Source of the DNA: Niabella sp.
Lineage (GTDB): Bacteria; Bacteroidota; Bacteroidia; Chitinophagales; Chitinophagaceae
Assembly (NCBI GenBank): GCA_027493055.1
Contig: JAPUDO010000126.1
Coordinates: forward strand, 101,958-141,320
Reading direction: 5' to 3'
DNA: 39,363 nucleotides
Shown here: one piece after another, positions 2,217 to 15,000 of the stretch
Layout of the letters: the number at the start of each line of letters is the position of its first letter
Numbering within the stretch: the first letter of the stretch is position 1
The notes under the pieces: generated by a model
What the model was told of the DNA's origin: nothing
Seen by the model: the letters and a program-made list of their open reading frames with translations, nothing else
Databases searched by the model: none
Translations under genes and position numbers: made by a program

Positions 2217-2257
2217 AACCATGAAAATTGTAAATGATATTTACAATTTTCATGGTT
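2217..2257. repeat. 41-bp perfect palindrome upstream of the ATPase gene
   Basis: Two 19-bp arms are exact reverse complements: AACCATGAAAATTGTAAAT at 2217-2235 and its complement at 2239-2257. The 3-base centre is GAT. The right arm reaches the region where the -33 element of the ATPase promoter should lie, so a protein bound here could block transcription. The same two arms, with a different centre, occur again at the end of the gene (3441-3481). The symmetry is that of an operator, a recombination site or a nuclease target. A transcript hairpin is less likely, because the expected transcription start is downstream. Confidence 0.9.
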
Positions 2258-2271
2258 AATGTATATCTTTG
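2240..2271 (+). promoter_or_regulatory. Promoter of the ATPase gene overlapping the palindrome
   Basis: The -7 box TATCTTTG at 2264-2271 matches the Bacteroidota consensus TAnnTTTG. A TTTAC at 2240-2244, within the right palindrome arm, lies at about the usual -33 distance but is a poor match. Only four bases separate the -7 box from the ATG at 2276, so the transcript probably starts at or very near the start codon and is leaderless. Confidence 0.6.
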
Positions 2272-2275
2272 CGGT

Positions 2276-3442
2276 ATGATTAAACGGCGTCTTGAAGATG
2301 AAATAACCAGGCTTACCAAGCAGTTTCCTGCTGTTGCGGTTTTAGGACCCAGGCAGGTAGGTAAAACCACACTTGCAAAAAAAATCGCAAAGCAACAGAA
2401 GAAGGGGGCAGTTTATTTAGATGTAGAAAAACCTACGGACCAGCTAAAGCTGTCTGATGCAGAGGCATACCTTCAATCAAAGAAAGACAAATGTGTAGTG
2501 CTTGATGAAGTGCAATACATGCCCGGGCTGTTTAGCATATTACGCCCGCTGATAGATGAAAAGAAAAAGCCCGGAAGATTTATACTTACGGGCTCCGCAT
2601 CCCCGGCCCTGGTAAAAGGAGTATCCGAATCCTTAGCAGGCCGTATTGCATACACAGAATTGCCCCCGATAGGATTTACGGAACTTCCCAAAAGCATTTC
2701 AATGCAAAGGCACTGGTTCAGAGGAGGGTTTCCTGATGCGCTCACAGCTAAAACCGATGCATTAAGCCGTAATTGGCTGGACAACTTCATTAAAAGCTAC
2801 GTAGAGCGGGATTTAAACCAGCTGTTTCATATTACATTTTCTACGCCTTTGGTACGTAATTTCTGGCAAATGCTGGCATATAACAATGGGGCCGTACTTA
2901 ATGCAGAAAACTATGCGCGCGCTTTGGCTGTTACCAACCCTACCGTACATAAATACCTTGATTATTTAGAAGGGGCCTACCTTATAAGAAGGCTGCACCC
3001 ATGGTTCGCTAATGTAAATAAGCGATTGGTAAAATCTCCTAAAATTTATATACGGGATAGCGGGCTGCTGCACCGCCTTGCCGGCATTACAGATATGGAT
3101 GAACTAAAAGGGAATGTTCTTATTGGCGCATCGTGGGAAGGATATGTTATAGAGCAAATTGCGCAAGCTAAGCCGGAAACGCTTTCTATGTTTTTTTACA
3201 GAACCCACAACGGCGCAGAAGTAGACCTTGTATTGATCAAAAAAAATAAACCCTGTGCTGTAATAGAAATAAAAACAAGCGCAGCGGCCACTCCTTCCCG
3301 GGGATTTTATGAATGCCAGGGAGATTTAAAACCAGCAAAAAGCTTTATTATATCCCCGGCAGGAGAAACCTATCCTGATAATAAAGGGAGCATTCATTGC
3401 AGCCTGAAATACTTTATACTGACAGAACTTTCAAAAATATAA
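2276..3442 (+). CDS. AAA-family ATPase with DUF4143 / PD-(D/E)XK-like C-terminus
   Basis: A 388-residue protein of the AAA_14 plus DUF4143 type. The Walker A loop GPRQVGKTT is at 24-32, Walker B VVLDE at 74-78 and a sensor-like LTGSAS at about 104-109. A winged-helix-like middle (about 190-245) follows. The C-terminal domain shows WEGYVIEQ (E288), GAEVDLVL (D317) and VIEIKTS (E331, K333), the spacing of a PD-(D/E)XK nuclease fold. The start at 2276 is preferred over an in-frame ATG at 2234, because the -7 box and the upstream palindrome lie between them. Family members are common in Bacteroidota, often in several copies, and their role is not established. The gene stands alone and is tightly bracketed by two palindromes with identical arms. 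Nuclease activity is inferred from motifs only. Confidence 0.9.
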   Translation: MIKRRLEDEITRLTKQFPAVAVLGPRQVGKTTLAKKIAKQQKKGAVYLDVEKPTDQLKLSDAEAYLQSKKDKCVVLDEVQYMPGLFSILRPLIDEKKKPGRFILTGSASPALVKGVSESLAGRIAYTELPPIGFTELPKSISMQRHWFRGGFPDALTAKTDALSRNWLDNFIKSYVERDLNQLFHITFSTPLVRNFWQMLAYNNGAVLNAENYARALAVTNPTVHKYLDYLEGAYLIRRLHPWFANVNKRLVKSPKIYIRDSGLLHRLAGITDMDELKGNVLIGASWEGYVIEQIAQAKPETLSMFFYRTHNGAEVDLVLIKKNKPCAVIEIKTSAAATPSRGFYECQGDLKPAKSFIISPAGETYPDNKGSIHCSLKYFILTELSKI

Positions 3443-3481
3443 CCATGAAAATTGTAAATTTCATTTACAATTTTCATGGTT
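3441..3481. repeat. 41-bp perfect palindrome at the end of the ATPase gene
   Basis: The same two 19-bp arms as at 2217-2257 appear here (3441-3459 and 3463-3481), with centre TTC instead of GAT. The last two bases of the ATPase stop codon are the first two bases of the palindrome. It could fold as a transcript hairpin, but no T-run follows, so a standard terminator role is doubtful. The intact arms suggest that the symmetry itself is under selection or was recently copied. Confidence 0.9.
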
Positions 3482-11487: not shown

Positions 11488-11518
11488 AACTATGGCTTAT
11501 AGTTCATGGTTTTTAACA

Positions 11519-11579
11519 GGAAGTGGGAAGTAGTAAGTAGGGAATAATAAACACTACCTACTTACTATTTACTACTTCC
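11519..11579. repeat. Imperfect dyad between convergent genes, possible two-way terminator
   Basis: A 23-base arm at 11519-11541 pairs with 11557-11579 at 20 of 23 positions around a 15-base loop. The arms are made of AAGTAGTAAGTAG-type repeats. It sits exactly between two genes that point toward each other and could end both transcripts, though there is no clean T-run. Confidence 0.55.
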
Positions 11580-11589
11580 TTCTATAGAT

Positions 11590-14938: not shown

Positions 14939-14958
14939 TTGCCATAGGATGGTATCAA

Positions 14959-15000
14959 CAAAGCCTGGCAGGTTCCGGAACTTGCCAGGCTTTGTTTTTC
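14959..15000 (+). terminator. Rho-independent terminator after the Gfo/Idh/MocA gene
   Basis: A 12-bp perfect stem, CAAAGCCTGGCA with TGCCAGGCTTTG (14959-14970 and 14983-14994), is followed by TTTTTC. Strong and well placed, 20 bases after the stop. Confidence 0.9.

Follow-up and report, generated by a model that had tools for sequence, protein, structure and literature searches.

Two copies of one palindrome enclose a DUF4143 ATPase gene of Niabella and probably represent the recognition site of its product

The window considered here is a stretch of 39,363 nucleotides from the 5.75-Mb draft genome of a Niabella species (G000). Close to its beginning a single gene is enclosed by two 41-bp palindromes (2217-2257 and 3441-3481), each of which consists of two perfect 19-nt arms around a 3-nt centre (19+3+19). 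The arms of both copies are the same at 19/19 positions and the centres read GAT (left) and TTC (right), which confirms what an earlier note on this DNA had reported. The spacing described there is likewise borne out: the ATG at 2276 lies 18 nt after the end of the left palindrome, and the right palindrome starts at the second base of the TAA stop codon (3440-3442). A mechanical call lets an alternative open reading frame begin at ATG 2234, inside the left palindrome; we set the start at 2276 because it is common to relatives. Downstream of the 5′ palindrome and adjoining it, a promoter-like box TATCTTTG (2264-2271, plus strand) is found, which matches TAnnTTTG, the consensus of the Bacteroidota -7 promoter box. 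Since this box begins 12 nt before the ATG, the mRNA of the window ATPase is probably leaderless. The neighbours, named by similarity, are presumably a response regulator before the unit and a PQQ-type dehydrogenase and purD behind it. In agreement with the earlier note, the flanking genes that we looked at included no recognisable transposase ORF, and inspection by eye gave no sign of a target duplication around the unit. The Pfam matches of the enclosed gene (AAA_14, AAA_22 and DUF4143 only) include no transposase family either.

When the complete window was dinucleotide-shuffled 20 times, the longest perfect arm (loops of up to 12 nt) measured 8-12 nt as compared to the 19 nt observed, and the folding of each palindrome beats all 200 shuffles of its own stretch, which rules out a chance origin of the pair. 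The pair is unique in the draft genome, where two copies and none more are found at up to 3 mismatches. Two more long inverted repeats occur in the window, at 11518-11580 (26-nt arms, 4 mismatches) and at 14957-14996 (20-nt arms, 1 mismatch).

The enclosed gene (2276-3442, plus strand) encodes an AAA_14-DUF4143 ATPase of 388 aa, a PADLOC candidate of type PDC-S01. DUF4143 is matched with 144.2 bits (cut-off 28.1) and AAA_14 with 103.7 (cut-off 27), and seven PDC-S01 models match the protein (best E 1.3e-91). The AAA domain (Pfam AAA_14; 2327-2686, plus strand) carries the Walker A motif GPRQVGKTT and the Walker B motif VVLDE. An AlphaFold2 model derived from 16 sequences (mean pLDDT 89.2) comprises an AAA+ part, a three-helix segment followed by strands (residues ~190-260) and a C-terminal alpha/beta part. 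As judged from the model, the three helices and the strands appear winged-helix-like (2843-2995, plus strand; residues ~190-240, extending to ~260). The alpha/beta part contains an E/D-x-D ... E-x-K motif (E315-x-D317 ... E331-x-K333; 3218-3274, plus strand), whose residues E315, D317, E331 and K333 are invariant in both protein alignments (17 and 16 sequences). We read this part as PD-(D/E)XK-like and hence as a predicted nuclease, the assignment being a reading of the motif and not a fold match. A search for a solved relative by sequence returned two chance-level matches and none beyond these. The nearest solved folds according to Foldseek are the archaeal AAA+/winged-helix ATPases 2qen and 2fna (SSO1545), which resemble the window protein in the AAA+ and the following part (TM about 0.5) at 14-19% identity. 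The same genome holds ten DUF4143 matches (L003-L012), nine of them above the cut-off; the upstream palindromes found at such genes differ from one another.

The 5′ palindrome is a feature of the family, occurring upstream of at least about half of the tested DUF4143 genes. Among 30 loci of the same family, collected by protein similarity, 28 offered enough upstream DNA; measured against dinucleotide shuffles, an upstream palindrome was present in 19/28 at p<=0.01 and in 24/28 at p<=0.05. In the phylum, where 45/99 genomes have a DUF4143 match, we sampled 69 loci, i.e. the returned ones and 40 more regions taken mostly in E-value order, with the weakest listed places left out. These loci gave 70 frames, 65 of them testable. 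Hereby, a 5′ palindrome was detected at 33/65 DUF4143 genes at p<=0.01 and at 41/65 at p<=0.05, as compared to 5/121 and 8/121 for other genes of the same loci, at least two of the 5 control palindromes being also counted with a DUF4143 gene. The distance to the first residue is within 60 nt for 29 of the 33 significant palindromes, and the other 32 of the 65 genes have none (p above 0.01). The TAnnTTTG box is found at -11 to -13 from the first aligned codon in 17/35 homologues and at -15 in one more, a count that includes one gene without upstream DNA and two aligned from inside the gene. Upstream palindromes are also present, by score, at 9/12 plasmid loci, and in 5/8 alphaproteobacterial plasmid relatives (not in L115, L118 and L123) the palindrome abuts or overlaps the ATG. 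At one locus of the phylum (L223, G621) two DUF4143 genes stand in tandem with short gaps between them.

To evaluate how the palindrome varies with the gene, we compared 93 distinct genes with an upstream palindrome score of 9 or more, obtained from 141 frames. Palindrome similarity increases with ATPase identity (Mantel rho 0.48), and 0/500 permutations reached as high a value. In four bands of ATPase identity, palindrome similarity within and between genomes amounted to 0.45/0.44, 0.43/0.48, 0.46/0.57 and 0.46/0.60, based on 45, 10, 5 and 1 within-genome pairs, genome labels being set for some of the loci and pairs without a label taken as different genomes. Paralogues of one genome hence do not have palindromes noticeably more alike than those compared across genomes. 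The palindrome follows the ATPase and not the host, which is the main reason to propose that the encoded protein probably recognises its own palindrome.

The 3′ copy (3441-3481) is mainly a clade feature with a few cases elsewhere. A protein tree with 35 members, of which 19 were included for close kinship or for a palindrome match, shows it in 10/12 members of one clade (support 98/95). Its distribution corresponds to three changes on the tree, which may be one gain and two losses. In these 10 clade loci and in G393, a later find by protein search, the 3′ copy starts inside the stop codon or at most 7 nt after it. It is degraded in G053 and partly in G292 and G172, and in G014 it is the 5′ copy that is degraded. 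In G036, a clade member without the 3′ copy, a decayed stretch was seen by eye. Elsewhere a significant 3′ palindrome (p<=0.01) is rare, with 3/30 downstream stretches in the family sample and 6/65 in the phylum. The comparison of flanks across Bacteroidota that the earlier note had suggested thus recovers the 5′ palindrome at 33/65 genes and a match between both ends at 2/65 (p<=0.01), namely L182 (40/43 letters) and L229 (22/30). Homologues lacking one palindrome, named there as counter-evidence, are common as far as the 3′ copy is concerned, which is absent in most homologues outside the clade; it should thus be dispensable for the basic function. A further match between both ends, at L168, was seen by eye. 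The DUF4143 gene enclosed by the near-identical palindromes of L182 does not belong to the clade of the window, and its genome (G621) contains 15 matches.

At nine two-ended loci, the arms agree to 91.5% within a locus and to 79.4% between loci, a difference reached in 56/362,880 permutations, or in 56/4,320 if shuffling is confined to the same palindrome type; the kinship of the nine loci is only partly controlled hereby. The 3-nt centres show no such agreement within loci. Across the 18 sites, 17 of the 19 pair positions can pair in 17 or all of the sites, and 9 of the 19 show more than one type of complementary pair. About 12 kb before the window, the same contig contains a disrupted DUF4143 gene of this clade type (G000:C126:89376-89922; L010, L072, L108), behind which a perfect ATCCTTGAAAATC 3′ palindrome is retained.

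Scans with three patterns, which overlap in the genomes searched, describe the specificity of the sites. The strict pattern ACCATGAAAN{10,30}TTTCATGGT gave 10 sites in 7/149 genomes (reversed control: 1 genome). The three cassettes of G000, G014 and G016 account for six of them as flanking sites, solo palindromes for three (G007, G008 and G147), and the tenth is located near an unrelated gene (G038). Given the two copies in the genome itself and these 7/149 relatives, a REP-like scatter was rejected. CCTTGAAAATCN{8,24}GATTTTCAAGG was found at 6 sites in 5/294 genomes (control: none), all of which adjoin a DUF4143 gene or, once, a pseudogene. With the looser CCNTGAAAATN{9,27}ATTTTCANGG, 28 sites in 22/396 genomes were obtained (control: 2 genomes); 16 of the 25 sites examined lie within about 200 bp of a DUF4143 gene and 9 do not. 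A scan of IMG/VR for the pattern was empty, and a virus-borne palindrome was therefore discarded. In two species of one genus (L157 in G393; L081/L158 in G147) a solo CCATGAAAATC palindrome stands beside the same gene, and by eye a DNA cytosine methyltransferase-like gene follows in G147.

Full, solo and empty alleles of the unit coexist in the genus. At the end of purD, compared in 17 genomes, the full unit is present in G014, whose cassette (C28) is the same as in NZ_FMZO01000010.1 (Niabella drilacis), and in G016. A solo palindrome is found in G007, G010 and G011, with no ATPase remnant (best E 0.4), and 12/17 genomes have no palindrome within 900 nt. The latter include G000, where the unit sits behind the gene next to purD. 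Behind the response regulator, which was found in 16/17 genomes, G000 carries the full unit of the window and G008 a solo palindrome; in the remaining genomes none was seen in 350 nt. The search for empty sites in relatives, proposed in the earlier note, led to G001, which has the same two neighbours with nothing between them; the intergenic DNA of G001 could not be aligned by eye. Palindromes away from any ATPase, which the note had regarded as counter-evidence, do exist in the form of solo copies, and those of the genus lie at the cassette place of other genomes or behind the same response regulator. Solo palindromes also occur where the genome gives no ATPase match at E<=1e-20 (G008, G010 and G147), so that the site can outlast the gene.

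The two palindromes are at the same time direct repeats, and recombination between them can thus delete the gene and leave a solo copy. On the PurD tree, which has several open forks, repeated loss appears to be the simpler history. On either side, the surroundings of the unit in G016 match those of the solo in G007 (63% and 71% aligned identity). G016 and G011 share the gene beyond (70%), with 52% on the purD side, hardly above chance, so that the place is fixed by purD alone. Loss by recombination between the palindromes predicts a solo copy composed of the outer halves of the two sites, which is the best fit in two of three comparisons, each of them hinging on one or two positions. The solo of G007 agrees with the outer halves of G016 at 38/38 positions (whole copies: 37 and 37) and that of G010 with those of G014 at 36 (whole copies: 35 and 34). 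The solo of G011 agrees with the outer halves of G016 at 36 and with the whole 5′ copy at 37. Within a genus, at least one flank is common to the species compared (G014/G016 on the purD side, G036/G347 on the 5′ side), and the other flanks differ between genera, except for one gene that recurs in G172, G292 and G584 in different arrangements. Homologues are present in 291 plasmid records, all under 60% identity. Carriage by phages was dismissed, the 7 phage records being all distant (best 30.5% identity). Two Runella plasmids share the palindrome exactly, the gene to about 95% (by eye) and part of the upstream flank, and their similarity stops 3 nt past the stop codon; because of the shared upstream flank this is not a clean unit, and the pair was set aside as a test of mobility. 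By eye, a CRISPR-like repeat array follows directly behind the ATPase stop codon on a Runella rosea plasmid (L113, after 2673).

The best explanation, to which we assign a probability of roughly 0.6, is an ATPase-nuclease that recognises its own site and regulates its own gene, behind which the site is repeated. We infer binding by the encoded protein, repression, bridging and a route of recombination, which would act as follows. The protein would have the palindromes on either side of its gene as cognate DNA sites. The AAA+ ATPase with its winged-helix-like and PD-(D/E)XK-like parts would bind the 5′ palindrome, probably as a symmetric oligomer, and would then occupy the DNA directly before the -7 box and limit its own expression. 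An operator would be expected to lie where the palindrome is found in much of the family, just before the start and beside a promoter-like box. In the clade of the window, a duplicate of the site would have been placed at the 3′ end of the gene, probably in a single event, and its sequence would have changed together with that of the 5′ copy thereafter. There it would most likely serve as a second docking site of the same protein, which might bridge the gene or stop convergent transcription, and recombination between the two sites would delete the gene and leave one solo palindrome. The earlier note had offered three readings, of which a gene controlled by its own product is best supported: the 5′ palindrome precedes about half or more of the genes and follows the ATPase, and binding itself is part of the model proposed here. 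Dedicated recognition sites bracketing their own gene find support as putative cognate sites, but the bracketing belongs mostly to one clade with few cases elsewhere.

The third of these readings, a minimal mobile cassette, has partial support only and is rather unlikely in our view. Here, palindrome, gene and palindrome would form a mobile or homing element, the predicted ATPase-nuclease moving the gene out of or into a solo palindrome. Such an element would account for the three kinds of alleles within one genus and for solo copies that best equal the outer halves in G007/G016 and G010/G014, and a nuclease-like motif and the plasmid-borne homologues are in line with it. However, the genome holds a single cassette, species of one genus keep at least one flank in common, the solo of G011 misfits, the signal comes from one or two positions, and ordinary recombination or slippage between 41-bp repeats also yields solos. 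With similarly low probability, PDC-S01 may not, or not only, act in defence and may be a self-recognising single-gene element acting on its own palindromes, the unit of the clade shifting between full and solo forms by recombination. We consider it improbable that the palindromes are sites of cleavage or sensing by the nuclease domain rather than operators, e.g. a self-target for restraint or for coupling to DNA damage or phage. The invariance of the PD-(D/E)XK-like motif in two alignments and the listing of the family as candidate defence in the accessible text of PMC12988326 would suit such a role, but a position before the start together with a promoter-like box fits an operator.

A role as RNA hairpins or terminators, insulating the gene or stabilising its mRNA, has to be weighed since the 3′ copy would fold into a strong RNA hairpin (-28 kcal/mol, z -8.3), the downstream neighbour is oriented convergently, and both copies pass a loose terminator scan on the minus strand, where their tails are T-rich. 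The scan lists both palindromes on that strand only, with no intrinsic terminator on the coding strand; the stem has 4 G-C pairs and the coding strand no T-tract. Moreover, the 5′ copy precedes the promoter-like box and is hence probably not part of the mRNA, the two copies of a locus share the base identity of their arms and not pairing alone, and Rfam gives no family at its gathering score for the palindromes. An RNA role is thus quite improbable, if conceivable for the 3′ copy. That a host transcription regulator binds the palindromes in place of the ATPase would agree with the dyad form and the promoter position, which fit any dimeric regulator, and with solo palindromes in genomes without a close ATPase; it is very improbable given that the palindromes of paralogues within a genome are unlike and related ATPases in different hosts have similar ones.

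Autoregulation through a cognate site, as preferred here, would add to what has been reported on the family. PDC-S01 is described as an ATPase fused to PD-(D/E)-X-K, and its ATPases as the fourth most common defence in all prokaryotes, validation being still pending for most such candidate defences (PMC12988326, accessible text); in rumen genomes PDC-S01 is the most frequent individual locus (PMC13356809, accessible text). The window protein matches the models of this family, including both Pfam domains and the architecture of ATPase and PD-(D/E)XK, whereas cognate palindromes and a two-ended form go unmentioned in the accessible text of PMC12988326, in which 'palindrom' is absent. A literature search, with most subscription papers and bioRxiv outside its reach, returned no recognised account of such palindromes; the locus thus appears to belong to a known candidate family with a putative cognate-site architecture that we did not find described. 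A readable cognate site beside about half of the sampled DUF4143 genes would provide a concrete substrate for the family and predict specificity gene by gene. It would also allow tests of whether the members of the family regulate themselves, act as nucleases at sites of their own or are selfish elements.

Dyad operators are found at many autoregulated genes, among them those of toxin-antitoxin systems and repressors. Like these, the unit described here has at its promoter a palindrome that is specific to the gene and varies with the encoded protein; in contrast to them, it has a second copy behind the stop codon and one large predicted ATPase-nuclease instead of a small repressor. IS200/IS605 and REP/RAYT are single-gene transposable elements with palindromic ends, and share with the unit of the window the single gene, hairpin-forming DNA at both ends and the occurrence of solo copies. 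Compared to these elements, the unit is without a transposase family and present here as one cassette per genome, and its ends are formed by a complete dyad in two copies, one of them at the promoter.
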